From positions 1-44,832 of IMG/VR virus record IMGVR_UViG_3300030110_005324: 44,832 nt of DNA, one strand, 5' to 3'. Made by a program: the position numbers and the translations under genes. This document shows positions 7,065-36,078 of this stretch, piece after piece (positions within the stretch are counted from its first letter, which is position 1; each line of letters opens with the position of its first letter). The notes below the pieces were generated by a model. The model ran no database searches. It had not been told where the DNA came from and saw nothing but the letters and a program-made list of their open reading frames with translations. Source of the DNA: a virus.

Positions 7065-8654
7065 TTATCCCTTAAAGAGCCAGCCAAACTGTTGCATATT
7101 TTGCATTGCTTTTTGACGCTGATCTAACGTCTTATCGTCTGCTCTGTATCCTTCCTGTCCTTTGATTTGTGTATTTAGTCTTGTTGAAGCGACAAACATT
7201 GAATCAACGAATGCTTCTCTGTATTGTTGCTCTAATTTGCCTGCCTCAAACGCCGTATCCCTTACCCAACAACCAATCGCAAGAGCCATAGTCAAGTCAT
7301 CATTGTAACTTCTCATTGCTTCAGGGCGACCATTGTTCCAAATAAACGTCTTAAACTCGTTAAGAGTTCGCGAAGAATATATGGTAATTAGTTTATTTCT
7401 AATGAATTCCTCCATTTTTGCTATGATAAGCGGGCGCGTCTTCGAAGTAGTGGAAAAACCGGCAATAGCATTGGACATATGTTCGCCGCGAACCTGCTCC
7501 ACATACTCGTGTGTAGACTTAACAGAGAAGTATATATTATTATAACCCAGTTCTTGTAGTTTTGATAATACTGCAAAGCCAACTGAGTTGTTTTCCACAA
7601 CGACCATTCCGTTGTTGTATTCTTTGCCAATGCTGTTTAGCATATCTGCATAAACATCTGGTGTCGGCTTACCCTGATACTCAGCAACAATTTCCATTGT
7701 CTCAAGCTTTATGACATGAAGTGTCGAATTATCTTTTCCATCACCTCGGGCGACATCTGCGGATAAAAGATAATTACATCCATCAACTGCCTTTTCCCAG
7801 ATCCAAAAGTTGCGGTCAAAACCTGTACGATATTGAGGCTCTTTGACTGTGCTTTCCATCCACGTTAGGTCGTCTGGATGAATGACTGTTTCACCCGACA
7901 TATTAAAATTACATTCTAGCTCTTGTGCGATTTGGCGGCGAGACATATTCCGCGTTTCTTTGTCAAACCATTCTGTATCGCGCTCAGGATGTACATCCCA
8001 AGGCAACATTGTTGGAAAAAAATCATTCTGTTGCTGCTCGGCATCAACATACGCTTGGTGAAACCAGTTGCCCACACCATTAGGAGTGGACAGGGCTATG
8101 CAACGTCCACCTGTTGATAGCGTGGGGTACAAGCCTGTCCACAGTTCGTCGAGCCCCTCAACGTGAGCAGCCTCATCGATAACCAACAATGATAGTGCTT
8201 CCGAACGACCGGCATCGCCTGATGTAGAGGAGGCTTTGATTTCTGAACCATTTGACAACACAAACGATGCTCGGTTGTCAATATCAATATTTGCAATCTG
8301 CAACCAAGGAGGCAAGTTTTTAATAATGTGTTTGACCTTCTTTACAAGGTTTCCTGCCGTCTGGAACTTAGTTGCGATAACCAAAATGTTTTTGTTGCGG
8401 TGAAAAAGCATCATCCACGCAACATAAGCAGCCGTTGTGGTTGAAATACCCAACTGGCGTGCTTTGAGGATCACATTAAAACGATGATCATTAAAGTCAT
8501 GTAATAGTGTTTCTTGAAACGGATATAGTTTAAACGGAATCAATCCGTCCAAAGGATGGGCGATTCTAGCGTAATTATTAATAAAGTAAACTGGGTCTTT
8601 ACCGCTCTTAAGTATCTCTTTTACTATTTCATTCTTTGTAAGTTCAAAGGACAT
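7065..8654 (-). CDS. terL: Terminase large subunit (packaging ATPase-nuclease), gp17-like
   Basis: A 529-aa TerL. The N-terminal ATPase shows a Walker A-type motif ARQLGIST (about residues 65-72), Walker B LLVIDEAAH (156-164, with Asp160 and Glu161), and the coupling motif ALSTPNG (187-193). The C-terminal RuvC-fold nuclease shows Asp300 in LLSADVARGDGKDNS, Glu354 in VVVENNS, and Asp452/453 in NDDLTMALA, the expected three metal-binding acids. It packages DNA into the prohead by docking on the portal, whose gene follows two bases downstream. The ATG at 8654 has only a weak ribosome binding site, 11 bases after the previous stop. No small terminase is recognisable in the window; one of the two genes upstream could fill that role, which is untested. 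Confidence 0.95.
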   Translation of the reverse strand: MSFELTKNEIVKEILKSGKDPVYFINNYARIAHPLDGLIPFKLYPFQETLLHDFNDHRFNVILKARQLGISTTTAAYVAWMMLFHRNKNILVIATKFQTAGNLVKKVKHIIKNLPPWLQIANIDIDNRASFVLSNGSEIKASSTSGDAGRSEALSLLVIDEAAHVEGLDELWTGLYPTLSTGGRCIALSTPNGVGNWFHQAYVDAEQQQNDFFPTMLPWDVHPERDTEWFDKETRNMSRRQIAQELECNFNMSGETVIHPDDLTWMESTVKEPQYRTGFDRNFWIWEKAVDGCNYLLSADVARGDGKDNSTLHVIKLETMEIVAEYQGKPTPDVYADMLNSIGKEYNNGMVVVENNSVGFAVLSKLQELGYNNIYFSVKSTHEYVEQVRGEHMSNAIAGFSTTSKTRPLIIAKMEEFIRNKLITIYSSRTLNEFKTFIWNNGRPEAMRSYNDDLTMALAIGCWVRDTAFEAGKLEQQYREAFVDSMFVASTRLNTQIKGQEGYRADDKTLDQRQKAMQNMQQFGWLFKG

Positions 8655-8665
8655 TTAATCATCGA

Positions 8666-9175
8666 CTACTGCTTGCCAAGAGAAATGAAGTCTCGGATAG
8701 ACTGATCAAGACGATCCTCAGATGGCAACCCAACTTCTACAACGCCATCAAGGTTTCCAACCTTATAATTGCGCTTGCCTGTAACAAAGACACGAACCTT
8801 AGAAGTGTTTTGTACAAGCACATCAACATCACCCTCTGCGGTGAGAGTAAGTGCATCGCCTGTAATTTTCTTGAATTCTTTCTTAAGAAAGTTCGCAACA
8901 TTCTGAATCATTTCCTCAACATCAGCCTCAATATCACCAGCGTATACATCTTTAAGTTTGATATCGCTTTGATATGAGATAGTGAGAATTGGTCCGCTCA
9001 TACGAACATTGAAACCATCAACAACACGAGAATCAATGATGGGATCTCCCTCTTCTCTTTTAAGTCCGATCTTTCTTGCCTCTCCATCAAGAGAGTATTT
9101 CTCATCCTGTGAACCATCATAAGCATTTGCGGCTGCCTGTGAAATTCCTCTAACGATGTCTAAAACTGAAGCCAT
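8666..9175 (-). CDS. Conserved phage protein upstream of TerL, function unknown
   Basis: A 169-aa soluble alpha/beta protein beginning MASVLDIVRGISQAAANAYDG, with a central stretch GDPIIDSRVVDGFNVRMSGPILTISYQS and a helix EMIQNVANFLKKEFKKITG before a beta segment and an acidic C-terminal helix ending FISLGKQ. From memory, proteins of this type recur beside terminase and portal genes in T4-like aquatic phages, but I know no function. The start overlaps the upstream stop as TAATG. Its position beside TerL would fit a packaging, neck or head-completion factor. No DNA-binding motif is evident, which argues mildly against a small terminase. Confidence 0.8.
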   Translation of the reverse strand: MASVLDIVRGISQAAANAYDGSQDEKYSLDGEARKIGLKREEGDPIIDSRVVDGFNVRMSGPILTISYQSDIKLKDVYAGDIEADVEEMIQNVANFLKKEFKKITGDALTLTAEGDVDVLVQNTSKVRVFVTGKRNYKVGNLDGVVEVGLPSEDRLDQSIRDFISLGKQ

Positions 9176-9573
9176 TATTTATTTTCTCCTTTGTTGGGAC
9201 GCCATCCGGTAGCCCAACGTTCTTCTCTTCCTTCAACATGTGTGATATAGCATTTACGACAACAAGTATATTTTGTCATATATACATTATCCCTCGTATC
9301 AAAGGAATAAGTTTGACATACAGGACAAGACCTATTGCTATCTTTATTAAGTAGTTTTTTTGGCAGTAAAACTCCCTCTACTTCTACTTTTTCAAGTTTT
9401 TCTGATATCTTATCTAATTTTTGATTTAATAACTTAAGTTGTTCAAGGTAATCTTCCTCTTTTTGTGGAGTCCAGTCTCTTTGTGGGTGCTGCACTGTTT
9501 CACTGCCATACTTCTGTGAGATAGCGTGTTCCACTTTAAGTGCGTAATCTGGATCGTGTTTTGTTTTGCTCAT
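9175..9573 (-). CDS. Small zinc-ribbon protein
   Basis: A 132-aa protein. Residues about 40-65 form a short coiled coil (LEQLKLLNQKLDKISEKLEKVEVE). The C-terminal part has CPVC (Cys83, Cys86) and CCRKC (Cys104/105, Cys108), spaced as a four-Cys zinc ribbon, followed by a tail with EERWATGWRPN. The ATG at 9573 overlaps the previous stop as ATGA; a longer reading to 9651 uses the frame of the upstream gene's coding region and has no ribosome binding site. The coiled coil plus zinc ribbon suggests a small oligomeric nucleic-acid or protein adaptor. Being two genes ahead of TerL, a small-terminase or packaging-adaptor role can be imagined but is not supported by a family match. Confidence 0.75.
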   Translation of the reverse strand: MSKTKHDPDYALKVEHAISQKYGSETVQHPQRDWTPQKEEDYLEQLKLLNQKLDKISEKLEKVEVEGVLLPKKLLNKDSNRSCPVCQTYSFDTRDNVYMTKYTCCRKCYITHVEGREERWATGWRPNKGENK

Positions 9574-10025
9574 TGTGTTATGTTTGTTGTTGCGTAAAAA
9601 GTTCCTAAAGACAGCCCAATACCAACAACTACTCCCCCTACTAACCACCATTGATTGTTTTTATTTGGTTGGTCAAGAGCCATCTCTCTGTAAGTATTTA
9701 TCTCGCTATTCTTGATATCCATTAAAAGTTGGTGTTTTTCTTCTAACGCATCGTAACTTATCTGGAGAGAATCAATTTTTAGTTGCATTTCAGTCCTTGC
9801 CCTTGACACCTGATATTCGACCTCTAAGTCACACTCTTCATCAGAAAACGTTTTTTCTGATAACAATTCGGCTAGCGCAGATGGATTAAACAATATACCT
9901 GCAAATGGGGCTGTTTCTCCAGCATCAAGGTGTGTATACTTAGCCTCTTCTAAAGTCTCTGCGAATATAGGAGCGGGAAATACTAACCCAAAGGTCAGCA
10001 TGCTTGCAATAATCTTATTCTTCAT
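9570..10025 (-). CDS. Secreted coiled-coil protein with C-terminal membrane anchor, spanin-like
   Basis: A 151-aa protein with a clear signal peptide (MKNKIIASMLTFGLVFPAPIFA, likely cut after Ala22), the block AGETAPFAGILFNPSA (about 35-50), a coiled coil (about 65-115), and a C-terminal hydrophobic segment (about 126-145). There is no lipobox Cys. The ATG at 10025 is chosen because it gives a canonical signal peptide; a TTG at 10037 would add four residues. It overlaps the preceding TM/coiled-coil gene by 11 bases. A signal sequence, periplasmic coil and C-terminal anchor resemble a unimolecular spanin in topology, but the absence of a lipid-attachment Cys is a real objection. A lysis role is inference. 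Confidence 0.7.
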   Translation of the reverse strand: MKNKIIASMLTFGLVFPAPIFAETLEEAKYTHLDAGETAPFAGILFNPSALAELLSEKTFSDEECDLEVEYQVSRARTEMQLKIDSLQISYDALEEKHQLLMDIKNSEINTYREMALDQPNKNNQWWLVGGVVVGIGLSLGTFYATTNITQ

Positions 10026-10618: not shown

Positions 10619-11317
10619 TTATACGTTAATACGAAAAAGCTGAAATATAAACTTTCTAATTAATAGTTCTTTCTCTTCTTCTGTCTCAGCTTCCGCAAAC
10701 CCGTAACTATAAGTATTTTTCTTTTGGGAAATAAGCCCTTGTATTTTTTCAGTTTCTCTTTTCATCCAGCGAGTTTGCTGATTATAGTTGCGTGGTGTAG
10801 AGACACGGTACTTGTCAGCGATGTCTAATAAGAAAAAGTATCTTCGATTGTCGAAAGCTTCGTTTGCTTCTTTAAATTCTTTTGCTCGTATTTCTTTTTC
10901 ATCCTCGGGTAGAAATTTATTGATACGATCTGGATGAAGTTTAAGTGCAAGTTTCTTAAACAATTTTGAAAAAGCTTCGTGAATAGCGATGTCATCGGCA
11001 GTCATTTGATATTCCTCGCTTTCTTGTTGAGTGTTTTGATAAACCGTTAAAGAGCGGTCACCAGGATCGCTAATTACATTCTCTACTTCGTTTTTATCAG
11101 GTATCTGTTCTTGGACAAAATAGTTTTCTACCCTTTCTTTATTTTCTCTTTCAAGTGCTGGAATGTCAACATTGTTTAAAGCGCAAAACTTTCTGTAGTC
11201 TTTTTCAAATTCTAATGCCGCCTGGGCTGAAACTTCCTTGATATACTCTAATTCTTCGTATGAAAATCTTAGTTTAGATAGACCGCGTTTCCATTTTAAA
11301 TTTTTAACTGCCGACAT
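10619..11317 (-). CDS. J-domain (DnaJ-like) co-chaperone
   Basis: A 232-aa protein with a J-domain-like helical hairpin at about residues 108-165: FSKLFKKLALKLHPDRINKF, with the diagnostic HPD triad at 128-130, then a charged helix EFKEANEAFDNRRYFFLLDIADKY. The N-terminal 100 residues are helical with an acidic tail, and the C-terminal 60 residues are helical without a zinc-finger or peptide-binding domain. J-proteins stimulate Hsp70 (DnaK) ATPase and deliver clients to it. In a phage this would recruit host DnaK, either to remodel replication complexes (its neighbours are recombination and primase genes) or to help fold the very large virion proteins. Which of these applies is unknown. Confidence 0.8.
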   Translation of the reverse strand: MSAVKNLKWKRGLSKLRFSYEELEYIKEVSAQAALEFEKDYRKFCALNNVDIPALERENKERVENYFVQEQIPDKNEVENVISDPGDRSLTVYQNTQQESEEYQMTADDIAIHEAFSKLFKKLALKLHPDRINKFLPEDEKEIRAKEFKEANEAFDNRRYFFLLDIADKYRVSTPRNYNQQTRWMKRETEKIQGLISQKKNTYSYGFAEAETEEEKELLIRKFIFQLFRINV

Positions 11318-11330
11318 ATCTTATATAGAA

Positions 11331-14300
11331 TCACACATTAACTTTAGCGTAGCCATTCTCCTTTTCAACATTGATAACATAATCAACACAATCCTTTAGT
11401 GTATCAAGGTGCGATATAAGAATAACAATCTTGTAATAGTTCTTGACCATATCAAGAATGCGGACAAAACCATCCATATTTTCAGCGTCCAGAGCGGTTC
11501 CAGGCTCATCCATAATAAATACATTTGGAGTAGGCAGATTACTCACTTGTAACAGTGCGAGTCGGATTGCCATAGATGCGATTGTCTTTTCGGCACCAGA
11601 TCCCATTTCAATTGGTCGAGGTTCATGACTGGGGTGTTTGATATAAACATTTAGTCGATTGCCTTCGTTTTCAAAGAAAACCTCAAAGTTTACAATATTA
11701 GCAAGAATTTTAGCGATTTCTTCATTAATGGCTGGTAGTTTTTTCTTGATAATATCGTATGAGATACCGCTAGTGTGCATACATCTCATGAACAAGTCAT
11801 AAGCAGAATATTCTTCGCGTAAATCGGCAAGGTCTTGCTTTTGATCTGCGAGGTTTTGTAGCTTTTGCTCATAAGAACCGTGGAGTTTATAAAGCTCATT
11901 TAACTCCTCTTTACAGGTAGTGCAAGCTTTTTGAGCACGAGAGATCAATACAGCATACTCGTTGCGCTTAGACACGAGTGTCTCAAGGTTTTCAATAGCC
12001 TCTTGATTTTGTTCATAGGTCTTGATTTGGTTTCCAATATTAACAAGCTCGTGTTTATAAACTTCAATCTTTGAGTTATTGCCTTCGATGCCTGCCGTAG
12101 CGACGGAGATTTCTTGATTTACATCTTTTTTTCTATCAACGAGTTTACTATATTTCTCAATATAATCATTTATCTTGCCTACATCAAGCTCATCAATCTG
12201 CTCCAACAGTGCGACACTTTGTTGTCGTAAATCAGTTACTTCGACAATCATATTTGGCAATGCTTCTTTTGCTTCGTGTGCTTTCTTAACAAATTTATTT
12301 TCACAACAAAACCTACAATCAGGATCATACTCGTGTGTTTCTAATAGTTTAACTTTTTTTCTGTGATTGTCAATATCTTTATTTTTAATTTTTAGAACAG
12401 AAAGTAGTTTCTCATATTCGTTTGTCTTTGTATCAACCTCCTGTTTTTTAGCGTGTAGATTATCAACATTATATTGTTCCAAAAAACTTGTCAGTCTTAC
12501 TAAGAGTTGTTGGTTGTCATTGTTAGACTTAGCAAGCTCCTGACTCTTCTTTGTCAAAGTATAAATCTGATTCTTCTTATTTTTTAGCTCTGATCGTGCG
12601 GCATTAATATCGATGATATCAACTGGAATAGATGTGATTTTATTTTCTATTTCCTCCAGTAGCTTCTGCGTGTCGCTGATAGTCTGGTCGTATTCATTAC
12701 AGCGTGTTTTATGCTCTTCAATGGAATCCAAACTTTCCCGCATTTCTTGATTAGCTGTCTCAATGTCCTCGTCAAACTCGCGACCTTCAAGACGCTTGAG
12801 CGCTCCACGAGTGTCGGCAGCGTCATCCTTAGCCATTTTAAACTTCTTATCAAAGATCTCAAGATCGAGAAACTTTGCAAGAATCTCTTTGCGTTTTGTT
12901 GAACCCTCCTTAATAAAGGTTAGTGAATCTAACTGAGAAGCCATGGAGGTTAAGAGAAAATCGTCAAGTGTTCCAAACATCTTGCGAATATTCTTGTCGG
13001 TGTCATTACGAGAAAGTCCATTGCGGCTAATGGTCTCATCCATCACGGGATCAAACTCTTCAAAGTTTACATCGGTCTTTGCTTCAACAGTTTCTTCCCC
13101 TTTCAGCTTTTTAATATACTTTTCGCTTTCTCGTTCAATGGTGAACTGGCGATCACCAATACTAATATTGACTCTGCCAAAGCCTCTGTCTCGGTTTTGG
13201 TTAATTACGTTAAGGTTTTTGCGTTCATTTTTCGAAGTGCTGTTAAACAGCGTGTAGAGGGCAGCGTCGATGATGCTCGACTTGCCTGAATAGTTCTTAC
13301 CGAAGATTCCAACGATACCTGCAAGATTTTCAAAATTAATCTTGTTGTTCTCACCATAATTGAACAGGTTGTCAAACTCAAACGAGTTTAGTTCCCAGTT
13401 AATATTGCGGGCGACTTCTTCGTTTTCCTCAACGGTTGTATTATACTTTTCGTTTAGTGACAAAACACGATCAAGGATCTCACCCTCAACTTCGTAGTCT
13501 TTAAGATACTCGGTGATCAGACGCTCCTGAACCGAAATGTCACGGAGATTTTCCTTGATAAAGTCGTCTTTGGAAAAGCCAAGTTCTGCTCGTCGCCCTG
13601 TTGCTCGATTAAGAAAGGTAATGCTCTCGGGTTTGAATCGATGTTTTGCAATATCAACTGCCCGCTTCATTCGGTCGAGGGGCAGGTTGTTGTTTGAAAC
13701 AAGACGAATGCGAGCACCCTCTGTGATATCGACACCTTTGGGCATCTTGCCTTTGGGTGTAAGCTCGATAGTGATAAAGGGCTTGGGATTGATAAGCTCG
13801 ATGTGACGATAAGTAAAGTTGGTTTTGTCCTGTATCTCCCAGATACCAAAGCCCTTGTCGTTTGTTTCGCCGTGGTTTTGCTGAACTGTAGAGCCACAAT
13901 AACGTATACGACCCTCAAAATCAAGCGTTTGTGCCTTGTGAATATCGCCAAGCATGGCGTAATCAAACTTCTTAAAAATAGATAGCTCGTGCTCGCCGTG
14001 TTCCATCACCCAGCCGATATCGGTCTTACAATTGGAGATAGAGCCGTGATACATCGCAATATTAATTTTGTTTGTATCGGTAGGGTCAATCCAGTTGTCT
14101 TCATCGAACACTGAAAGAACATTGAAGCAAAGCTCAGAAGTGGCGTGAAACTCACCTGAGTTCTTAAAGAAATAGATATTCGGATGCTCCAGTGCCTGAA
14201 TGATCGGTGTGATCGCGTCTTGACGGCTGCTGTTCTTTAGATTACCATCGTGATTACCTGGAATAATAACAAGTGGCGCGATGTCCGCCACGTTCTTCAT

Positions 14301-14492
14301 AAACTCTGTTGCGAGTTCAAAATATTCAGGTGATAGCTGTGTCTTTGTGTGTGCGAGATCGCCACAATGAACGATAAAGTCAGGCTCTTCTTCTGCCAGC
14401 TTCTCGTAAAGTTCCTTGAAGATAATACGATACTCGTAATGATACTTCAGATTTTTAATATGCGTGTCCGCAATGTGTGCAATTTTATACAT
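11331..14492 (-). CDS. Fused Mre11/SbcD nuclease and Rad50/SbcC ATPase (T4 gp47-gp46 in one chain)
   Basis: A single 1053-aa frame. The N-terminus (1-340) is a calcineurin-like Mre11/SbcD nuclease: Asp9-x-His11, Gly44-Asp45, Gly79-Asn80-His81-Asp82, Tyr148-His149-Gly150 and Gly182-Asp183-Ile184-His185. After a linker (about 340-365) an SMC-type ATPase starts: Walker A GKNYSGKS (398-405), two coiled-coil arms flanking a zinc hook Cys726-Arg-Phe-Cys729, the signature MGSGAEKT (about 963), Walker B VFIMDEPGTALD (about 991-1002) and the H-loop His1028. In T4 gp47 and gp46 are separate proteins that resect DNA ends for recombination-dependent replication and host DNA breakdown. Every catalytic motif is present and no stop or frameshift occurs between the halves, so this looks like a working fusion. 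Confidence 0.95.
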   Translation of the reverse strand: MYKIAHIADTHIKNLKYHYEYRIIFKELYEKLAEEEPDFIVHCGDLAHTKTQLSPEYFELATEFMKNVADIAPLVIIPGNHDGNLKNSSRQDAITPIIQALEHPNIYFFKNSGEFHATSELCFNVLSVFDEDNWIDPTDTNKINIAMYHGSISNCKTDIGWVMEHGEHELSIFKKFDYAMLGDIHKAQTLDFEGRIRYCGSTVQQNHGETNDKGFGIWEIQDKTNFTYRHIELINPKPFITIELTPKGKMPKGVDITEGARIRLVSNNNLPLDRMKRAVDIAKHRFKPESITFLNRATGRRAELGFSKDDFIKENLRDISVQERLITEYLKDYEVEGEILDRVLSLNEKYNTTVEENEEVARNINWELNSFEFDNLFNYGENNKINFENLAGIVGIFGKNYSGKSSIIDAALYTLFNSTSKNERKNLNVINQNRDRGFGRVNISIGDRQFTIERESEKYIKKLKGEETVEAKTDVNFEEFDPVMDETISRNGLSRNDTDKNIRKMFGTLDDFLLTSMASQLDSLTFIKEGSTKRKEILAKFLDLEIFDKKFKMAKDDAADTRGALKRLEGREFDEDIETANQEMRESLDSIEEHKTRCNEYDQTISDTQKLLEEIENKITSIPVDIIDINAARSELKNKKNQIYTLTKKSQELAKSNNDNQQLLVRLTSFLEQYNVDNLHAKKQEVDTKTNEYEKLLSVLKIKNKDIDNHRKKVKLLETHEYDPDCRFCCENKFVKKAHEAKEALPNMIVEVTDLRQQSVALLEQIDELDVGKINDYIEKYSKLVDRKKDVNQEISVATAGIEGNNSKIEVYKHELVNIGNQIKTYEQNQEAIENLETLVSKRNEYAVLISRAQKACTTCKEELNELYKLHGSYEQKLQNLADQKQDLADLREEYSAYDLFMRCMHTSGISYDIIKKKLPAINEEIAKILANIVNFEVFFENEGNRLNVYIKHPSHEPRPIEMGSGAEKTIASMAIRLALLQVSNLPTPNVFIMDEPGTALDAENMDGFVRILDMVKNYYKIVILISHLDTLKDCVDYVINVEKENGYAKVNV

Positions 14493-14501
14493 ACAACCCC
14501 A

Positions 14502-15437
14502 TTAAATATTTGCGATAGCTTGCTCTAACAAGTAATCGCTTTCAACTACAGCAGTAGCTTTTTCTTTTCTTTTCAGAAACTCTTCTCGTCCCATTTCAGC
14601 TATATCATCATAGCCTCTAGTATCTATTGTATACAATTCTACGCCATAATTCAAGAACATTTTTATAATTCTTTGCTCTTTCTTAACAGCGTCTGGGTCA
14701 AGTGCCAGAAAAACTGGTGTGTCGTTTTGAACAATCTTTATAAATAACTTAGAGTTAGAGCGCAATGTAGAGCCAAGAATAGGTACTGCATTTGGACCTG
14801 CTACAATGGCGTCAAACACGCCCTCAGTAATTATAAGGTCTGTGTCCCACTCTAAATATAGCTCGTTAAATATGACATCCTTTGAGCAAGGAGGGTTGAG
14901 GTATTTACGAGGATCAGAGGAAAATGCTCTTGCTATAAAATAATTTAGATCTCCGTTAATATCAAATGACGGTACGATCACTCTTTTAGCGTATCGACCC
15001 TCCATGCAATATCCCATTTTCCAATACAATATGTCATCTTCTGATACACCTCGTCTTTTTAAATAATTTAGAGCGGGTGTGGCAGATAGCGAAGGCTCGT
15101 TGTTTAGTGACGCAAATCCAGTTGGCATATCTAAATTTTCTGGTAGGATCTCTGATTTGTCATACTCTGCAAAAATATCATCAAAGTCTGTAATATTGAC
15201 ACGGTTTGTGAGTGTGTCCCATTCTTGTAGTTGATTAAAATCTCCAAAGCGGCGGACGATGCGACGAATATCTTTACCCGTCGTTTCGCAAATCCAGCAC
15301 TTGTAGACATTCTTCTCGATATTGACTGACAGCTTTTTTTTATGGTGCTTGCAATACGGGCACGCAAAAAGGTGCTCGTCATTTGACCGATAGCTGTCGC
15401 CAAGGATAGCGGATATAATCTTAAACTTCTTCTGCAT
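14502..15437 (-). CDS. DNA primase with zinc finger and TOPRIM domain
   Basis: A 311-aa primase. The N-terminal zinc-binding domain has CPYC (Cys26, Cys29) and CWIC (Cys47, Cys50), the CHC2-like finger used for template recognition, with the third ligand also a Cys. The TOPRIM catalytic part has LIITEGVFDAIVAG (Glu205) and FLALDPDA (Asp247, Asp249). It should make RNA primers for lagging-strand synthesis. The protein is compact and lacks a helicase domain, so a separate helicase is expected elsewhere. The ATG at 15437 has only a weak TAAG site, and the predicted start of a sigma70-type promoter falls on or beside it, so a leaderless message is possible. The Mre11-Rad50 fusion follows after 9 bases. 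Confidence 0.9.
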   Translation of the reverse strand: MQKKFKIISAILGDSYRSNDEHLFACPYCKHHKKKLSVNIEKNVYKCWICETTGKDIRRIVRRFGDFNQLQEWDTLTNRVNITDFDDIFAEYDKSEILPENLDMPTGFASLNNEPSLSATPALNYLKRRGVSEDDILYWKMGYCMEGRYAKRVIVPSFDINGDLNYFIARAFSSDPRKYLNPPCSKDVIFNELYLEWDTDLIITEGVFDAIVAGPNAVPILGSTLRSNSKLFIKIVQNDTPVFLALDPDAVKKEQRIIKMFLNYGVELYTIDTRGYDDIAEMGREEFLKRKEKATAVVESDYLLEQAIANI

Positions 15438-15443
15438 AGACTT

Positions 15444-15472
15444 ACTATAACATAAAGTTTAAGTATCGTCAA
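15444..15472 (-). promoter_or_regulatory. Sigma70-type promoter before primase
   Basis: On the coding strand TTGACG (15472-15467), a 17-base spacer, then TATAGT (15449-15444): five of six matches in each box and ideal spacing. The -35 box lies within the last codons of the RuvC-like gene. The expected transcription start, about seven bases after the -10 box, falls at about 15437, the A of the primase ATG. Recognition by host RNA polymerase is inferred. Confidence 0.6.
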
Positions 15473-15989
15473 GTAAAATTGGTCCAGCCAGAGCTACAAC
15501 AAGTGCATCAGCACGATCATCGGTGCCGGGTTGAGGGTTTCCGTGTCGTGTCATACTGTAAGAGAAGTCCTCTCCAAACTTTTCAGACATTCGCTCGATA
15601 ATAAAGTTTTTCTTTTCTTTTGCTGGAATTCCTCTCGGCACTTTAATACCAATCTTGGAGCGGGCAGAGGTCGGATTGATTAATTCTGCCTCCATCTCAA
15701 AGACAATATTCACAACATAGCAGCACATTCCGTTGAAACGCTGGAGTGTCGCCATTGTAAACGCAGTTGTCTTGCCGCCTTTAAACATCATAGCAGGTTG
15801 CTCCACGAAAACATCGTAAACAACGTGCTGCTCGTTTATTTCACGCATTCGCTGTTCAAATATTTCAGCGCGTTCCTCCAATGACATGTTTGATTTAAAC
15901 TTTAACACTTCGCTTATGATTATATTTTCTCTATCGAGAAGTGCAATGCCTATTTTGGAGGAACTTATGTCAAGTCCCAGTATTTTCAT
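15459..15989 (-). CDS. RuvC-like Holliday junction resolvase
   Basis: A 176-aa RuvC-fold nuclease. It begins MKILGLDISSSKIGIAL with the first catalytic acid Asp7, continues with Glu63 in VFVEQPAMMF, and ends with the last acids in GTDDRADALVVALA (Asp157/158, Asp161). The length is that of bacterial RuvC (about 173 aa). It should cut four-way junctions to debranch replicating and recombining DNA before packaging, the role endonuclease VII (gp49) plays in T4. It starts one base after the preceding stop and leads into primase and the Mre11-Rad50 fusion, forming a recombination cassette. The C-terminal codons overlap a promoter. Confidence 0.9.
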   Translation of the reverse strand: MKILGLDISSSKIGIALLDRENIIISEVLKFKSNMSLEERAEIFEQRMREINEQHVVYDVFVEQPAMMFKGGKTTAFTMATLQRFNGMCCYVVNIVFEMEAELINPTSARSKIGIKVPRGIPAKEKKNFIIERMSEKFGEDFSYSMTRHGNPQPGTDDRADALVVALAGPILLDDT

Positions 15990-26208: not shown

Positions 26209-29200
26209 TTAGAGAAAATCGCTCTTCTTTATTTGTCCAATGTTTTTAATTTCCTGTACAGAGTCACTAGGTTCCATTTCTGTAACTGCTTCTTCTTGTA
26301 TTATAGTTGTTGTACTGTTGTTGTTTACCGATGTGGAAACTTTTTTAGTCGTTGGAATTGGAGACGCTAGCGCCTCGACAGCTTCAGCTTGAGCTTGAGC
26401 TTCAGGGGTCGATCCCATTAACGCCTCAACCATTGAATTATTTGAATCTACTTTTGTTACCACACCTGTTCTAACAAGCTGATTAGGATTGCTTGGATCA
26501 ACTTGTGAAGCAATTGTTTTTGTTGTTTCGGTTGCAACTGTACCAAGAGTGTTTTGAACTCCTTCAGTTGTAAATCCGCTAGTAGCCTGGTCAGCGATTT
26601 GTTCGACCACTGTTTTAGATACTTTCTTGGTTGACAAGAATCCACCCTCGGGCTTTGTTAGTTTGGAAATATCAATATCCTTATCAACAGTTACGGCAAC
26701 TGGTGTTCCAAACACAACATCCTCATCAATCTTAGCAAGCTCTACAAGCGAGAAGAAATCATATGGCCAGTTATAGCCGACAGTTTCTTCTCCATCTAAA
26801 GTCGTGGCACCTTTTGCTGCGCCGCCTGCAAGGAAATCTGTTTCCTGTACGCCTTGTTTACTTAGTGCTGCACCCAGACCCGCGCCTTGAAGGTCTTTAG
26901 GTATATCAGTTGTCGTATTTGAGCTAATCACTTTTTTATAATAATTTTTTTGCGCCTTTTGCTTAACTTTGAATACCATCCATTGAAGTTTATCTTCAAC
27001 ATCAGTCAATAATTCGTCGTTGCCAATCGAATGTGTAATTTCTTTTGTCTGCATAATTTCGCCTGTTTCAAGACCATTATTGGCATCAAAAGCTCTAGCA
27101 ATACGAGGAGGTAAGTTTTGCCAGATATCAGTAAGATCTTCTTGATTAAGTGTGTGCTCAAATTCAAAAATATACATTGTAATTGGATCTACATCATCAG
27201 GGTAAGTTATAAAATCAAATGATGGCGGCATCACATATTTCTGCATTGATTCTACCATTTGTCTAATAGAATCTCCCGCCGTTATTGGATCTTCAGATAA
27301 GTCTGCTTGCGGACCTGAACTAAATTCGTTTATTGCGGTATCAATTTTTCTTCTATCGATCTCAAAGAAACTTCTCTTGTTATTTTCTTCAACAAATGGT
27401 ACGACAACAACTGCTTCACGAATTGTTTTTGTAGGTGCAACTCTTCCTAATTTTTTAGATACGGGCTTGAAGCCTAAAAGATCTACAAGGCTTAAGTCAG
27501 TGTTTGGTGCAACTCCAACAGGATTTGTGAAAGACGGACCAGTTGCATCCCCTGGGGGTGATTCTACAATTACAGGTCTAAACTTTGGCTTATCAATTTC
27601 TAAGAAAATACCCTCTTCACCCTCGGGGAGCCTTCCATATTGATGCCACATACCAATTGGACGAGTATTCATTCCGCCAGAAACTGGGACGTAGAGGTCG
27701 TGGTCCGTAGTGTTTTCAATTACTGTTAGTCCAGCAGAAGATGATGCATCAATAAAGTTTAAAATTGGTGTTTCAAACTTTGCTTGAATAGCCCAGCGAT
27801 CACCGCCTGTTAGATCAACATTTTGAAATTTGAATAGATCTTTTGCACTTACGCGACCAAGCAGATTTACTGATGCTGAAATTTGCATAGAATTTGTCTC
27901 TGCCCTGTTTTCAACTTGGAAACTAGAAGTTTGGAATGTACCGGGACCGCCCATAGGACCAGTTCCCGCTAGGGCACCCGTGGCGTTCCAATTTGGGAAT
28001 CTATGGTAAGACACTACTACTTGTGATTGAATTTCATCAAGAGTATATTTTTTGGTTTCTGTTGGAGTAAATTCAAAGATAGCATATGCACCGCCGTGAT
28101 AATAAGGTGGTGTAAATGGTCCATTAATACCAAAATTACTTCCACCGAACGAAGAACCACTTACTTGAAAAGCCGATTTTCCTGTTGAGGTCGGCGCGAC
28201 TGAATTGCCGTCAGCGTAAGTCGTGCCGGAAAGCGCTCCCATAACTGGCGGTCCAAAAGCAGAGGGGCGACTATACATAACCATATTATGTTCCCCGCGA
28301 CCGGCGTCATATGGGTATTTTTGAATATCTGGATCATATTGATCTGAGCCGACTATAAAAGAGCGCCTTAAACCAACTTTCATTGTATACTTGCGATTTG
28401 CCTTTGCCTTTTGAAAATTTTCTTCTGGACTGGAAACAAAAGATGTAAAGTTTTGATCTTCCAAAAAGAATTCTGGTATTTCTGCTAAAAAGTTGTTCAT
28501 AGCAAGTTTAAATCTTTCATCGCCATTACCATTCCAAGAAGCGGTGAGGGGAAGTGACGCGCTAAAATGAGGTTCCATATCAAAAAAATTTATTTTTGCA
28601 ATGTGGTCTTCTGGTGAGGCTAAAGCTTCAAATGGAACTCGGTAATCAAAATACTCGTTATCAATATAATAATCTTCACCACTTTTTTCGAACCCAATCT
28701 TAAGACCGCCACCCGCTTCCAGTCCTTGTCGAACTGAAGAGGTAAGCAACACGCTTGATGTTAACACAGGATAATCAACGGCGATACCAGATTTTATTGT
28801 ATTAAATAAAACACCAGGAGCAATCATAGGTGCAAAGAAGGGACGACAGGCTGCTTGGCGCTCGTCATCTTCAACGGCGACCTGGCTGAACGTTCCGCCG
28901 CCGCCTCGGGTGCTCAAGAAGCCGCGTGTTAATGTAAGGTTCGAACCATAAGACCCAGAAAACAATCTTGAAAGCTGAACGGTTCTTAAAGCAGGATAAA
29001 AGCCATCGTAAGGTAGTAATTTTAATAATGCTTTACAACGAACAGTAATCAGACCTGGGTTTTCTGGCAAATTTGTTTTTGTTGCTACATCGTTCTTGAC
29101 AACGCCAAAATATTTTGTAAAGTCAGAATGGCTATAAATTTTATAAAAATCATCTTCACCACTTGAAGTAACGTTTGCAAGTGCTCCCGTAAGATTGAAT

Positions 29201-32200
29201 AATCTTGTATCATTAAACTTATCAACGGCGTTAAGAAGGTAGTCTTCCATTCGCTCGCTCATTCGATATTCTGGCAAGATTGAGTAATCTTTTCCAATAA
29301 CCCTCATCTGCTCTGCATAAGCAGCGTATGAATCATAGAATGGGGATTTTCCAGATTGCCTTCCAGCATCCCAAGGAGCATCTCCAGAAAACTGAGTTGC
29401 GCCGGTATGTATGAGGGCGTTGGTTGGTGGCACTAATGGACTATTTTTTAACCTAACGGATGAACCTGTGGTTAGACCATGAGGTCTACTATAAAGGCAA
29501 GAAGCTGTAATCAACATGAGTCTTCCGCTGTACCATCCACTTTGATCGGGACCGGGTGAGGCGGCGTTATTTTGGTCGCGACCAGCCCAAAAAATACAAC
29601 TTACATTTTGTAATAATCCGGTCCCACTTCCACTAGCTGCGTCAGCGGTGGGTTGTATACCTCCTGCGCCCGTGTTGCCATCGGTTCCACCCCAAACATC
29701 ATGTGCCGCTGTTTTAACACCGGGAGACCTTGTGTTAACAAAGTCAAGACGGGCATCAAGTGGCCATAATGAACTAGTATATGTTCCTTCAGCGAGACTG
29801 TGTTCTCTAAACCCAAAGCCCGAACCTGTTAGGGCTACTTTTCTGTCAATCCTTTTATCTCTCCAGAAGTCGTTCTTAAAGGTTGTTCTTTGATTATTTC
29901 GTCCGCGATAAGTGTTGTTTTTTGCTGGGTAAACTTGTTCAGAATAAACCAAATTAACAAGTTGATTGCCATCTTCAGCGAACATTGAATATACATTGTC
30001 TGCGGCTGATGTGTCATTTTCTGTAAGTCCAAGTTTTTCATTTAATTTAGAATTAAAAAAGTTTACTTTTTGACTTGCAAAAGGTGCTTTGATCTCGGCT
30101 GGAATTCCAGAAACCTTACCATTAAACTCTAATGGTTTGTATCCGGTGGCTACAACTGGTTCTGAAAATTCTAATATTGTTCGATCTTGTGTTAATCGGA
30201 AAGTTGGAACACCGATTTTACCTTGAGGTTTTAGCGGCGTAAATCCAAATATTTGAACGTTATTTTTATTGCCATCCCATTCATATCCACGATACTTACC
30301 TTTTGCTCTTAAAAGTGCGCTTCTTTCGGTATCAGGGTCAATAATCGAAATTGAATTGTTTGCACGCATTTGGCGAACAATTGGGTGATATCTGTTGCTT
30401 ACCTGTCTCCACGATGAATACCCATAAGGACCATTTCGATTTAGCATTAATGCATTAAAAATATTACCCTTGTTTCGTAATCTTTTGTGCCCCGTGCCAG
30501 TAAGAGTAAAAGTACCACCTGGGGCACTGGTAGCAGTGTCAAATGGTTTTACAGTATAGGCAAACAAGTTGTCAGCAGCATTGGGGTCAGATGCTGTTAG
30601 GATATTAAACGAAGAAGTTGTTTCAAACATTGTTGCATTTGTGCCAACAAAGTCAATAAAACTGGGTGAGCCAGCGCCGGTGCTTGTAAGAACTTCTGAT
30701 GCGGATAAAAAGGTTATCGCGGGCTGGAATGCATTTGTTCCAGAAATAAAGCCTGATCTTGGAACATGTCCAAAGAAAGAACCTGTATTTGAAATCGACG
30801 CAGTAATCCAAGAATATTGTTTGGCATTTCTTGGGATTGGGTGCTGGATATAAAAGTTGTCGCGAACAGAAGCAGTGCCATATAGAAATTGAGCGTCAGA
30901 AGTTGCATCAATATCTCCCTCAATTTTAAACCCTGTGTTTCTGTGAACTTTATAAAACGATGGGGATGTATTGTATGTGTTTGCAACAATTGATCCGTAA
31001 GTTGCATCCGAGCCAAAGCGACCTGTATGAAGTGATGCAAGGGTGCGAAGACCACGACGATGACCAAGGTGATCTGTTACTCTTATAGAGCCGCCGCCAA
31101 CGAGGTCAGATCGTTCACCAGAACCAGAGCCTCGCACCGAAAGGTTTCGGAAAGGCAATGTATTATACACCGATTTTTCGGCTGCCGCAACATCAAGGAA
31201 GCCAAGAGTGTTAATCTCTGGACCGCCTGGGGCAGAGAACCGCTCGACAATGACGGCATCTTGCTTAGTTCTTTCTGGCAAAGTGAACACAGTTGGTTTT
31301 GTAACACTTCCAGCCGGGATTGTTCCATCTTTTGGCTCATAAAGATTTGAATTTCTATTAAGACCCTTAATGTATGGGCTCGCACCAATAGTTGTTGTGC
31401 CCGGAATAAATGTATTACCACGGCTTCTAACACTATTATTTGGTCTTATTCCAATTAAAGTATGAACATTTGTTGTTTTAGGATTATTTGTCTTAAATCT
31501 ATCTGGCAACAAATCAGTTTGCCCGTCGTTAAACCAGAAGTTATTTGTGCTACGACCAGAAGTTTGTACAACTTGATAAGTTTTTTCATAGTTTCCAATC
31601 GCTCCAAATTGAAGTGTGCCCGAAAGCACAGTGTCAGCCGAAGCGGTTGTCTGTAAAATATTGCGAATGTTAACAGGACGTTTTGCTGTTTCTTCACGCC
31701 ACCACCAAGCACGTTGTCGTGTTGGATCTGGGTAAGGACCGCCATAGTCGGGTCCAGTTAAACCAATAGCGCCAAGACCACCTGGACCGCCACCAAGGAG
31801 AAGTCTCCAAGCTTCTGGGCGTGTAAATTGTCCATCGAGATTGTTTGGTCCAGCAGCGCCGTCTCCTCCGATGCGGTTGGCGTCAAAGTTATTAATTCTA
31901 ACATGTCTGTGCTGGTGCCCTCCGACGTATTTCTCTGTAAACGGACCCTGCATTGGAGTCTCGTTTCTATCGCCATATGCATCAGAGTGAAGGTTGACAA
32001 GTTGTGAGTTTGCCAAGAAGTTGGCTTGCACACCTGCGTTATATCCACCAATGTTAGATGATGCGGACAAAATATTAAATGGCATCGCAATCTCGCCCTT
32101 GACACCATCGAGTGAACCTGAATCATATGCTCTTCCATTTCTTGTGCCAAAAGAGTATTTTTTCTTTTGCAGTTCTGGTGGTGCAAATTCGTCATTACAG

Positions 32201-35200
32201 TCTTTTAGTAATGTAACATTTACATTGTAAGCATTAAGCTCGTTAAGTGGAAGACCAAGTGATGACACAGGTCCGTGAGGGTAATTAATTCCTCTATAAA
32301 AATTGGTTTTCTTGTTTTCGGAATAGTTGATGCCACCGTGGAGTTGTGGTCTTTTACTAACACCAAATCGATAAGGTGTATTAAATTTGCGATTTAATAC
32401 TTGTAGTGAAGCGCTTAAAATACTGTTTCTATTATTATCAACGTTGGCATCACCACTGCTAATTGGATCGTCATCTCTTTCGGCACGCTCATTCCAATAA
32501 AAACAATTATCTGATTGTAAACCAGAAATTGGTCTATGCCCGTGTTCCCAATCATAAAGGTGTCTGTTGACCGTAACAACACCTGCTTCCGGGTCTGAGC
32601 CGGAGAATTCAAGTGTAGGGAACTTAGACCAATATTTGTTTCTTTCTAAAATATGGCTTTCTACAATATTGTCAATACCATCGCTAAATTGTGCTGCTGC
32701 TGGAACAAGTTGCATTAGCATCGTTTCGAGAGTCGAATCAATCCATTTGTAGAACTCAACAAACTTATCTAAATCTGGAGTGTTACCAACTCTTTCAAAG
32801 AAGAATTGACGTAGATATTCCATGCTCTTATAGCTCTGTCGATATCTGTGAACAGGTTCGCCAATTAAATTGTTAAACTCTGCAATGGAACCAAAATAAT
32901 TAATAATTTCATCAGAAATGACCTGATACATACTTTTCTCAAACGCATAGTATGTTTTAGTGGGTCTAGTTTCCTTTGTAAAGACCTCAGTCTCCTCCTG
33001 ATTTAATACGCGAATGTTGTCATCACCATTTACAACCTCGGGAAGCTGCTGCTTTCCAGAGTATATAAATACGTTTTCTGCTGAACCAGTTGAATTAATT
33101 CGGAAGCCGTCGCCACGACCAGTATGCTGATACTTAAGAACCTTGCCAAGCCAGTTATATCTGCCGATTAAATCAAGAGAGCCAGAAGTAACATCTTCAA
33201 CAACAAACTTGCCATCAAAAGTTGTTGGAGATCCACTTCCATTATCAGAGCCGGTTACTGTTTGAAAGTCCCAGTAAAGAGCAAGTGATTCAATTTCTGG
33301 CACTTGAACATTTGGTAAATCAGCTTCTTCAATATAGGCGTCTCTACCAGGGCGCAATAGTCCAAAGTTATCTGGATCGATTGCGTGGGTTCTCATAGTT
33401 TCGTCATCAATATAATCAAACCAATATCGACAAGACGTAACTTTAACATCACTATAATGAAGTGTCGAGCCAGTAAAGTTTGTATTGTGTGACCCAACAA
33501 AAACACGTTTTGGTGAAATTAATAAATTTTCTGCTGCCTGTTTGCCAATCGAGCCTGTAATTGTAAACTCATTAATTTTTCTATCGGCAATGTAATTTAC
33601 ACCATAAAATTCAAGCACATAGTTGTTGTCTACAGCCCCGCTAGCAAATGATTGGGGGTAGCCCAGGGGCTTAATTCTTACGGCAAAATTCCACTTTTGA
33701 TTTTCATAAACGTTGTAATATTGAGAACTTGTAAGCTCTGGAATTGGAAACGGAACTGACGACGAAAGCATAAACTTAACGTCTGAACCAAGTTTTTCAT
33801 CGCGAATTGCAAAAACTTGGAAGTTGGCATTATCTGTTGCTGCCCAAGTTAAATCAGTTTCAGTTGGAGAATTTGCTCGTGCCTGATGCATACCAAACAA
33901 AGAAGCAGTTAAGTATGGGAATTCTTGTGACGCAGCGTTTTCAAGTTGTCTCGGTATCTTTCTGGGGAATATTACTTCGGCTTCGAGAGTTAAAGGAAAG
34001 CCGTCTTCAAGTGTTAAGCCCGCTCTACCAGATCCAGAAATGTGAGATACACTATTTGGATTTGAAGAATCAGCATATTGATATACTGTGCCTTCAAAAT
34101 TATCTTGATGATTAAAATTAATTGCTTTTGAGCGAACACTATCTGCTCTGCGATTTGTTTTAAATTTATATACCTCATTGTCAGCATAAGCATTAATACG
34201 AATAACATCATCGCCAATTCCAAAACATCTAATGAGGTTTCTGAAAGATTTTTCAGTTCCCTTTGCTTTATAAATGTCAGTGAGGTTGTTGTAGATGTTG
34301 TTATAGATAATATTTTTTACCGTATACAACTCCTCTTCAAATTGTTTTGTATCATTACGATTTCTGTAATATTCTAAAAAATGACCATTTTGAAATAATT
34401 CTGGTGCGTTCAAGCCAAAAGAATCAACTGCTCTTTTTCCGTATGGATAAAGTTTATGTAATTTATTGGGCTGCCCATCAAGACTTACGCTGCTGCTTGG
34501 ATAAGAAGCCATATTAAACTTGGGCAGTTCTCCAATCAACAAATCAAGATCATCAAGATAGCTTGACATTATCTGTGTCAATTTTTTAATGTTTCCAGTT
34601 GTTCCATTGCCCTCATCTTCTTCAATGATCCAAGCTGGAAGCGAGAAAAATAAAGAAGAGTTGTTTGAATAATCCCAATAAGATCCTGAAGCTTGCAATT
34701 CTGCCCGCAAATTATAAACATCTGGATGATTGCGGCGGACAATTACATCAAGATCCTCTGTTCCCACTGAGGCAGAGTTAATAGCTGATCCTGTGTTTCG
34801 GGCATTCGAACTTGGATATCCTGTCCATGTTCCGTTTGAGATACGACCAGAATAGTCAAGTACAACACTATCAGTCGTAGTATCGGTGGTGACCCCCTCA
34901 TTAAATTTAAAATAAACACCTAAGTCGAGGTTGGCTGTGTCAGTATTTGTACCACCGCCGAGATTACTCGTAAAATAATTTCTCTTAATTTGTTTTTCGG
35001 TTCTTCTCGCTTTCCAAAAGCGGAACTCGTCAAGAGAACCAGAAAGCTTACCAGAGCCTAAATTTGCAAAGGATTCGCCTGAAGGATTAAACGTACCTGT
35101 GACCAATGCACCAATGTTTGCTTCCAAGTCTTCACGGATTTCACCAATATTCGAACCAGTTGTTTTCGTCTCGATCAGTGATCCGTTGACATATAATTTT

Positions 35201-36078
35201 GTTTCAATGTCGGTGCCACTGTTGACAAAACTAAACGCATAATGTTGCCAATCAGAGAATGAGTTCAGATTTAGCGTAGAGCCAATCTCAACAGAGGATG
35301 TGCTTAAACCAACCGTACCTGATAAAACCGTGACCATAAAAGGAGAGGATGCACGAGTACCATCAAGTTCAATTCTTAAGCGTCCGTAGTCAGCGCTGGA
35401 TGATACTTGCCCGTTCCACATGTCAAATACAACTTGCTTCTCCGTTAAAGCAGTATCCAAAGATCCAGTTTTTAACCAAAATTCAACTGTAACACCACGA
35501 TCTAAATTAGTTTGCAGATTTGTAGATCTTTGAGCAGAAACTGGTCCGCTTGAACCTGTAACTGTTTCATCAAAAATGTTTGATTTTGTATCAAATACAT
35601 CAGCTAATGAAGCGGTGCCGAGAGATGAGCCAAAGGTTGAATTTGGTCCACCTTTAATATTAATATATTCGTAATTACTGCTCGCAGGCTGTCCGTATCC
35701 ATTTACAATACTACCTGCTAATGTTCCCCAACCGTCGCTGGCAAATACAGCATAGCCTGTTGACTTTGGGTACTTGTTGTCTAAGATATAAAGATCAAGA
35801 AGTGTAGCATCTTTTTTCCACTCCAATCTTTCTTTGAGTGATCCATCGTAAGGATACTCATCATAAATGTATTCAAGAGATCTTAAATAATATTCCTCTG
35901 CCGAACCGTATTTAGAGAAATTTGCTGGATCACTAAAATCAATGTGTGGCTCAACGCGAACAACATCTTCATTGTATTCTGCGATGTATTCTGGAGACTC
36001 AACATCCTCTGATATTTTTTCAATACTTGAGGATGCAATGACTTGTGAACTTCTATTAAAAAGATCCTTTATGGACAT
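26209..36078 (-). CDS. Giant (3289 aa) virion protein with LamG-like domains
   Basis: A single uninterrupted 9.87-kb frame, the largest in the window. A LamG/concanavalin-like domain lies at about residues 190-368 (VTVEFWLKTGS, WQHYAFSFVNSGTDIETKLYVNGSLIET, SGSLDEFRFWKARRTEKQIKRNY), and a second at about 690-905 (FPLTLEAEVIFPRK, VTSCRYWFDYIDDETMRTHAIDPDNFG). Residues about 495-640 (helical, with DIYKAKGTEKSFRNLIRCFGIGDDVIRINAY) resemble the KGT-type motif of tail proteins that join the baseplate to fibres. Residues about 1080-1180 are helical, including NIVESHILERNKYWSKFP. The last 200 residues are Ala/Thr/Gln-rich and disordered. The start follows gene 36080-37546 by one base. By position after gp6 it occupies the place of T4 gp7-gp8, but a homology claim is not justified. 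A baseplate-periphery protein that binds carbohydrate or fibres is inferred. Confidence 0.85.
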   Translation of the reverse strand: MSIKDLFNRSSQVIASSSIEKISEDVESPEYIAEYNEDVVRVEPHIDFSDPANFSKYGSAEEYYLRSLEYIYDEYPYDGSLKERLEWKKDATLLDLYILDNKYPKSTGYAVFASDGWGTLAGSIVNGYGQPASSNYEYINIKGGPNSTFGSSLGTASLADVFDTKSNIFDETVTGSSGPVSAQRSTNLQTNLDRGVTVEFWLKTGSLDTALTEKQVVFDMWNGQVSSSADYGRLRIELDGTRASSPFMVTVLSGTVGLSTSSVEIGSTLNLNSFSDWQHYAFSFVNSGTDIETKLYVNGSLIETKTTGSNIGEIREDLEANIGALVTGTFNPSGESFANLGSGKLSGSLDEFRFWKARRTEKQIKRNYFTSNLGGGTNTDTANLDLGVYFKFNEGVTTDTTTDSVVLDYSGRISNGTWTGYPSSNARNTGSAINSASVGTEDLDVIVRRNHPDVYNLRAELQASGSYWDYSNNSSLFFSLPAWIIEEDEGNGTTGNIKKLTQIMSSYLDDLDLLIGELPKFNMASYPSSSVSLDGQPNKLHKLYPYGKRAVDSFGLNAPELFQNGHFLEYYRNRNDTKQFEEELYTVKNIIYNNIYNNLTDIYKAKGTEKSFRNLIRCFGIGDDVIRINAYADNEVYKFKTNRRADSVRSKAINFNHQDNFEGTVYQYADSSNPNSVSHISGSGRAGLTLEDGFPLTLEAEVIFPRKIPRQLENAASQEFPYLTASLFGMHQARANSPTETDLTWAATDNANFQVFAIRDEKLGSDVKFMLSSSVPFPIPELTSSQYYNVYENQKWNFAVRIKPLGYPQSFASGAVDNNYVLEFYGVNYIADRKINEFTITGSIGKQAAENLLISPKRVFVGSHNTNFTGSTLHYSDVKVTSCRYWFDYIDDETMRTHAIDPDNFGLLRPGRDAYIEEADLPNVQVPEIESLALYWDFQTVTGSDNGSGSPTTFDGKFVVEDVTSGSLDLIGRYNWLGKVLKYQHTGRGDGFRINSTGSAENVFIYSGKQQLPEVVNGDDNIRVLNQEETEVFTKETRPTKTYYAFEKSMYQVISDEIINYFGSIAEFNNLIGEPVHRYRQSYKSMEYLRQFFFERVGNTPDLDKFVEFYKWIDSTLETMLMQLVPAAAQFSDGIDNIVESHILERNKYWSKFPTLEFSGSDPEAGVVTVNRHLYDWEHGHRPISGLQSDNCFYWNERAERDDDPISSGDANVDNNRNSILSASLQVLNRKFNTPYRFGVSKRPQLHGGINYSENKKTNFYRGINYPHGPVSSLGLPLNELNAYNVNVTLLKDCNDEFAPPELQKKKYSFGTRNGRAYDSGSLDGVKGEIAMPFNILSASSNIGGYNAGVQANFLANSQLVNLHSDAYGDRNETPMQGPFTEKYVGGHQHRHVRINNFDANRIGGDGAAGPNNLDGQFTRPEAWRLLLGGGPGGLGAIGLTGPDYGGPYPDPTRQRAWWWREETAKRPVNIRNILQTTASADTVLSGTLQFGAIGNYEKTYQVVQTSGRSTNNFWFNDGQTDLLPDRFKTNNPKTTNVHTLIGIRPNNSVRSRGNTFIPGTTTIGASPYIKGLNRNSNLYEPKDGTIPAGSVTKPTVFTLPERTKQDAVIVERFSAPGGPEINTLGFLDVAAAEKSVYNTLPFRNLSVRGSGSGERSDLVGGGSIRVTDHLGHRRGLRTLASLHTGRFGSDATYGSIVANTYNTSPSFYKVHRNTGFKIEGDIDATSDAQFLYGTASVRDNFYIQHPIPRNAKQYSWITASISNTGSFFGHVPRSGFISGTNAFQPAITFLSASEVLTSTGAGSPSFIDFVGTNATMFETTSSFNILTASDPNAADNLFAYTVKPFDTATSAPGGTFTLTGTGHKRLRNKGNIFNALMLNRNGPYGYSSWRQVSNRYHPIVRQMRANNSISIIDPDTERSALLRAKGKYRGYEWDGNKNNVQIFGFTPLKPQGKIGVPTFRLTQDRTILEFSEPVVATGYKPLEFNGKVSGIPAEIKAPFASQKVNFFNSKLNEKLGLTENDTSAADNVYSMFAEDGNQLVNLVYSEQVYPAKNNTYRGRNNQRTTFKNDFWRDKRIDRKVALTGSGFGFREHSLAEGTYTSSLWPLDARLDFVNTRSPGVKTAAHDVWGGTDGNTGAGGIQPTADAASGSGTGLLQNVSCIFWAGRDQNNAASPGPDQSGWYSGRLMLITASCLYSRPHGLTTGSSVRLKNSPLVPPTNALIHTGATQFSGDAPWDAGRQSGKSPFYDSYAAYAEQMRVIGKDYSILPEYRMSERMEDYLLNAVDKFNDTRLFNLTGALANVTSSGEDDFYKIYSHSDFTKYFGVVKNDVATKTNLPENPGLITVRCKALLKLLPYDGFYPALRTVQLSRLFSGSYGSNLTLTRGFLSTRGGGGTFSQVAVEDDERQAACRPFFAPMIAPGVLFNTIKSGIAVDYPVLTSSVLLTSSVRQGLEAGGGLKIGFEKSGEDYYIDNEYFDYRVPFEALASPEDHIAKINFFDMEPHFSASLPLTASWNGNGDERFKLAMNNFLAEIPEFFLEDQNFTSFVSSPEENFQKAKANRKYTMKVGLRRSFIVGSDQYDPDIQKYPYDAGRGEHNMVMYSRPSAFGPPVMGALSGTTYADGNSVAPTSTGKSAFQVSGSSFGGSNFGINGPFTPPYYHGGAYAIFEFTPTETKKYTLDEIQSQVVVSYHRFPNWNATGALAGTGPMGGPGTFQTSSFQVENRAETNSMQISASVNLLGRVSAKDLFKFQNVDLTGGDRWAIQAKFETPILNFIDASSSAGLTVIENTTDHDLYVPVSGGMNTRPIGMWHQYGRLPEGEEGIFLEIDKPKFRPVIVESPPGDATGPSFTNPVGVAPNTDLSLVDLLGFKPVSKKLGRVAPTKTIREAVVVVPFVEENNKRSFFEIDRRKIDTAINEFSSGPQADLSEDPITAGDSIRQMVESMQKYVMPPSFDFITYPDDVDPITMYIFEFEHTLNQEDLTDIWQNLPPRIARAFDANNGLETGEIMQTKEITHSIGNDELLTDVEDKLQWMVFKVKQKAQKNYYKKVISSNTTTDIPKDLQGAGLGAALSKQGVQETDFLAGGAAKGATTLDGEETVGYNWPYDFFSLVELAKIDEDVVFGTPVAVTVDKDIDISKLTKPEGGFLSTKKVSKTVVEQIADQATSGFTTEGVQNTLGTVATETTKTIASQVDPSNPNQLVRTGVVTKVDSNNSMVEALMGSTPEAQAQAEAVEALASPIPTTKKVSTSVNNNSTTTIIQEEAVTEMEPSDSVQEIKNIGQIKKSDFL

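Follow-up and report, generated by a model that had tools for sequence, protein, structure and literature searches.

Known One-Chain Mre11-Rad50 Proteins

The Mre11 nuclease and the Rad50 ATPase are encoded by two separate genes in E. coli (SbcD/SbcC) and in phage T4 (gp47/gp46), and a sequence-only reading of the locus described here took this separation to be the rule in T4-type phages as in cells. The statement holds for those two systems but not as a generalization, as one-frame fusions were described in Mimivirus, Bacillus phage 0305phi8-36, plasmids, bacteria and eukaryotes by Yoshida, Claverie and Ogata in 2011, in a class where both domains share one frame with Mre11 N-terminal and Rad50 C-terminal (PMC3175470). 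The same study raised the possibility that the abundant reads of marine viral fractions resembling the Mimivirus protein R555 are derived from phages, with few long reads confirming the fusion (PMC3175470). One-gene fusions are also found in Microcystis phage Mel-JY01, Tenacibaculum phage pT24, Xanthomonas phages XacN1 and phiXF1, and an uncultured 735 kb phage.

The gene analyzed here lies in a 44,832-nucleotide stretch of viral DNA (positions 1 to 44,832 of IMG/VR record IMGVR_UViG_3300030110_005324, hereafter the window) and has the domain order of the 2011 class, both halves occupying one frame. The fusion is thus of a kind already described in 2011; what the present analysis adds is how large and how uniform the marine phage clade carrying it is, together with the constancy of its linker, its gene order and the variability of its hook. 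Like the window protein, R555 places Mre11 before Rad50 and, as described, carries a GDxxH motif with Asp at the position of Pyrococcus His206 (PMC3175470), but at 1351 amino acids against 1053 it has a longer coiled coil, as giant-virus proteins do, and the window is tailed-phage DNA. The Bacillus phage 0305phi8-36 protein differs by description in lacking the capping and helix-loop-helix part (PMC3175470). Mel-JY01, pT24, XacN1 and phiXF1 share with the window a single gene in which nuclease is followed by ATPase, and Mel-JY01 also has a primase-like gene immediately upstream, but none of the four proteins exceeds 30% identity to the window protein, a value reached over the full length by that of Mel-JY01. 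T4 gp47/gp46 and E. coli SbcD/SbcC have the catalytic and ATPase machinery in common with the window, and probably carry out the same reaction, albeit from two genes and with His where the window has Asp in the GHxH motif.

A Complete Nuclease and a Complete ATPase in One Frame

The fused gene is an uninterrupted, ATG-started frame of 1053 codons whose SbcD/Mre11 and SbcC/Rad50 halves are both complete (Table 1). The existence, coordinates and domain order of such a fusion had been correctly read from the sequence, with the strand left unstated. Pfam places Metallophos on residues 3-186 (E 3e-14) and AAA_23 on 375-615, with SMC_N reaching 1046, and PHROG assigns SbcD to residues 1-365 (E 7e-32) and SbcC to 311-1051 (E 1e-54), so that the nuclease is N-terminal and the ATPase C-terminal. 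By sequence, the N-terminal part comes nearest to solved SbcD/Mre11 chains and the C-terminal part to solved archaeal Rad50, and the best solved fold matches of the predicted structure include Mre11 and Rad50 chains from several MR complexes.

Table 1. Features of the fused gene and its upstream neighbors in the window.
Feature	Coordinates	Strand	Basis
Fused Mre11/Rad50 (SbcD/SbcC) gene, 1053 aa	11331..14492	-	ATG-started frame, Pfam, PHROG
Mre11/SbcD phosphoesterase core, residues 1-235 (D9, H11, D45, N80, H149, D183, H185), boundary approximate	13788..14492	-	Pfam Metallophos, alignment of 64, predicted structure
Mre11 capping-like domain, residues 236-296, boundary approximate	13605..13787	-	predicted structure; inferred from Mre11 fold matches
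Helix-loop-helix, residues 319-356, likely Rad50-binding segment of Mre11	13425..13538	-	predicted helices
Linker, 8 residues, 357-364	13401..13424	-	predicted structure, length census (n=118)
Rad50/SbcC ATPase N-lobe, residues 365-544, Walker A and Q-loop	12861..13400	-	Pfam, alignment, T4 gp46 comparison
Ascending coiled coil, residues 545-719	12336..12860	-	predicted structure
Zinc-hook CxxC (CRFC), residues 726-729	12306..12317	-	sequence
Descending coiled coil, residues 733-905	11778..12296	-	predicted structure
Rad50/SbcC ATPase C-lobe, residues 910-1053: signature SGAEK, Walker B, H-loop	11334..11765	-	Pfam, solved-chain match, alignment
DnaG-type primase, directly upstream, same direction	14502..15437	-	phrog_47
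RuvC-like Holliday junction resolvase	15459..15989	-	phrog_159; order kept in relatives

All of the motifs expected of the two enzymes were found in the one frame, as had been claimed. The nuclease half has D9xH11, G44D45xxH48, G79NHD82, H149G150 and G182DIH185, which corresponds to the DxH, GDxx(D/H), GNHD/E, H and G(H/D)xH set of the Mre11/SbcD family, except that the final motif has Asp in place of its first His. The ATPase half has the Rad50/SbcC set arranged around a coiled coil: Walker A at G398-S405, the Q-loop residue Q520, the signature SGAEK at 965-969 (which differs from the textbook LSGGE), the Walker B pair D995E996 and the H-loop residue H1028. Key motif residues are invariant or nearly so across 64 aligned fused proteins, and the motifs are present across 118 distinct fused sequences, with Walker A absent in one. 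The last phosphoesterase motif is GDIH here, in contrast to the GHxH of E. coli SbcD, T4 gp47 and several others, and because the Asp replaces a ligand equivalent to His206 of Pyrococcus Mre11, activity could differ; the same Asp and His in a GDxxH motif have been reported for R555 (PMC3175470).

The Fusion in Related Phages

A scan of IMG/VR with the whole protein returned 77 loci, and a separate scan with the nuclease half alone returned at least 586 confirmed relatives, from which the best 80 were taken. Both halves lie in one frame in 75 of the 76 newly fetched loci of the nuclease-half scan, and the remaining one ends at a contig edge; in the whole-protein scan, no stop or frameshift between the halves was present in any junction-spanning IMG/VR contig. 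After removal of duplicates, the whole-protein scan and the best 80 of the at least 586 relatives yielded 118 distinct full-length fused sequences, drawn from numerous metagenomes and mostly about 47-100% identical to the window protein. Mel-JY01 and others add fused proteins at about 30% identity, and one contig (L001) is identical over the entire protein. The sequence-only reading had proposed that full-length two-domain relatives be sought and that a stop or frameshift between the halves in related genomes would undo the claim; the search recovered the former, and the frame is continuous in every junction-spanning IMG/VR contig. The fusion is therefore family-wide across the phage group to which the window belongs.

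A plasmid search gave partial matches alone, none spanning 80% of the fused protein, and the matches of a genome-contig search were confined to phage-like contigs within MAGs. Some further loci have unusual layouts. In CP070664, a WOR-3 MAG chromosome, two pieces that are 78-91% identical to the window protein (L168/L171) lie far apart, which suggests phage sequence wrongly built into the MAG chromosome. In a 484 kb uncultured phage (L079, LR756508), the fused MR gene is split near the GDIH catalytic motif, in the region of about 8560-9640, by an insertion of ~0.9 kb. The insertion is probably an intervening sequence that encodes a homing endonuclease, since its Cys-rich product looks like a nuclease toward the C terminus, and an Rfam search found no group I intron in the interrupted locus. 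Stenotrophomonas phage RAS14 (L175, 944-4307) and phage CM1 carry an XacN1-like fusion in two overlapping frames (240 and 942 amino acids), which could mean that the nuclease half is truly divided, that the frame has shifted, or that the sequence contains an error.

The relationships among these proteins were examined in a 32-row tree that has several long branches, such that deep placements are unsure. The window clade groups with Mel-JY01, pT24 and the 735 kb phage (100/99), while XacN1 pairs with RaK2 (100/99), in which gp47 and gp46 are separate, and for that reason the XacN1 fusion looks like a separate event; the starred branches require at least two changes between the fused and separate states. 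For pT24, profiles recognize the nuclease half alone and the fold match is full-length. The closest viral fold matches of the window protein are giant-virus proteins that share its architecture and match over the full length, including those of Tupanvirus (E 4e-63, 23% identity), Harvfovirus and Catovirus.

The Join between the Two Halves

The structure of the monomer was predicted from a 37-row alignment (pLDDT 81.7, pTM 0.52), and the predicted order runs from the phosphoesterase core and the capping-like part through two helices (319-333 and 337-356) and an irregular stretch (357-364) to the first Rad50 strand (365-374). The pair of helices, predicted with pLDDT 77-92, is likely the Rad50-binding helix-loop-helix of Mre11. 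A profile comparison with T4 gp47 left this block unaligned, the alignment being confined to the nuclease core. By eye, no Rad50-binding segment had been told apart from a linker placed at 340-365; the prediction revises both points, in that most of the supposed linker is helix and a likely binding segment precedes the eight irregular residues.

The linker is eight residues long in 116 of the 118 fused sequences and seven in the other two, and its mean majority share across these sequences is 0.69, as compared to 0.72-0.80 for the domains and 0.43-0.46 for the coiled coil. Since the first Rad50 strand aligns to the very start of T4 gp46, so that the Rad50 part begins where the separate protein begins, the join is nearly scarless. 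In the Thermotoga Mre11-Rad50 complex, about 28 angstroms separate the end of Mre11 from the start of Rad50, a distance for which 9-12 residues are needed (PMC3175470). By analogy, the eight-residue linker would come close to what this gap calls for.

The covalent link had been suggested to alter how the complex assembles, an idea that finds no support in a protein that keeps its nuclease, helix-loop-helix and ATPase parts and has a nearly scarless join. For the same reasons, the simplest reading is an ordinary M2R2 complex formed by two fused chains; this part of the earlier proposal gains support as a reading, the assembly itself being predicted from sequence.

The Coiled-Coil Apex

The least ordinary point of the protein is its apex. 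In the window, a CxxC (CRFC) is followed by a third Cys, whereas most relatives have Cys-x6-Cys: across the 118 sequences, CxxC occurs in 24, Cys-x6-Cys or close (CGxx[FY]xxCKFI) in 91, and other Cys spacings in three. On a quick tree built without the apex columns, the hook type changes at least 14 times, a rough figure given that the tree came from FastTree and the types were assigned by pattern. One weak search of sequenced phages for the Cx6C apex, using a 27-aa query, gave no relevant match. It is possible, if somewhat doubtful, that the marine clade has repeatedly swapped the CxxC hook for the Cys-x6-Cys hook and back inside a constant fused frame, the latter geometry being unmatched in that one weak search.

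Genomic Setting

Each of the 120 family loci whose flank is long enough, some of them duplicate cuts of one contig, has a same-strand primase gene ahead of the fusion, and RuvC, primase, fusion, terminase and portal form a recurring order in family loci. The window also encodes a large terminase, a portal, a head maturation protease and baseplate wedge proteins, and the baseplate families suggest that it comes from a tailed phage whose baseplate is of the contractile type. In each of nine relatives (156-204 kb), a single SbcD-like and a single strong SbcC-like match were found, both in the fused gene; Mel-JY01 has two extra SbcC matches, both weak and partial. A RecA-family gene was found in all six near-complete relatives tested.

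Two other genes of the window deserve mention. Between the baseplate and replication genes, a 3289-aa protein is encoded at 26209-36078 on the minus strand; its sole recognized domain is Laminin_G_3 (186-365), and it is perhaps a tail fiber or adsorption protein. Just downstream of the fusion, a 232-aa gene (10619-11317, minus) has a weak DnaJ-like match (E 0.0014, below the cut-off), and in some relatives the homologous gene instead precedes that for RuvC.

Function and Alternatives

The gene very probably encodes a one-chain phage Mre11-Rad50 (SbcCD/gp47-gp46) DNA-end-processing nuclease that acts as an ordinary M2R2 complex and feeds RecA/UvsX-dependent recombination and replication, the activity being judged from sequence. 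Two chains would pair via their ATPase heads, nuclease domains and hook, with each helix-loop-helix gripping the coiled-coil root of its own chain, which would leave the linker little distance to bridge. Cutting driven by ATP would then open blocked or broken ends to give 3′ single strands, and these would be passed to RecA/UvsX for strand invasion and recombination-dependent replication, a role already proposed for gp46/gp47 in T4. The benefit of the fusion would lie in fixed 1:1 expression and inheritance as a single unit, with no new reaction.

Whether the gene yields one chain at all can be questioned at two levels. Separate neighboring genes are frequent in phages, and the RaK2 gp47 and gp46 genes are spaced by just 9 bp, so an assembly or sequencing artefact might join two adjacent genes into one; but with so many distinct fused sequences, the fused proteins of the Mel-JY01 type and the near-constant linker length, there is virtually no chance that this happened here, and the recovery of fused relatives excludes both chance and assembly error. 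A genuine frame might still give rise to separate Mre11 and Rad50 proteins, either through a protease or through an internal start. Internal starts are used by phages, and 13 of the 54 distinct junction stretches have an ATG precisely where the Rad50 part begins (MRNVNW; L034, L035, L041, L043, L045, L048, L049, L051, L062 and others), possibly an old start codon. The window, however, has no ATG near the junction, where a TTG that lacks a Shine-Dalgarno-like site is the sole start-like codon, and the ATG-bearing relatives lack enrichment for a ribosome site upstream, with GAG accounting for 0.28 of Glu codons there versus 0.38 gene-wide. The linker, moreover, is about as conserved as the domains. 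Neither the junction ATG/TTG test nor the GAG-share test supports an internal start at the Rad50 part, and a split during or after translation is highly improbable.

A different question is whether a single-chain SbcCD serves mainly to attack host DNA, be it the host chromosome or competing replicons in phage-host conflict, rather than replication and repair. T4 gp46/gp47 are annotated for host-DNA degradation as well as recombination, and related SMC-nuclease machines such as JetABC and Lamassu, which are among the fold matches, act in defense. Yet a role in replication and recombination agrees with the fixed order with the primase and RuvC-like resolvase and with the presence of a RecA-family gene at another site of the genome. 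The host-directed role is thus rather unlikely as the main one, and the two roles are compatible.

Implications

What had been an inference from marine viromes in 2011 becomes a clear result, namely a large clade of marine tailed phages in which Mre11 and Rad50 are fused throughout. A single-chain phage MR protein with a fixed, short linker could suit structural study of the M2R2 cycle. If the repeated exchange of hooks is true, the apex would be an evolvable module, perhaps with other zinc binding or another way of joining the arms. The variable hook in itself offers a natural series for probing what hook geometry does.
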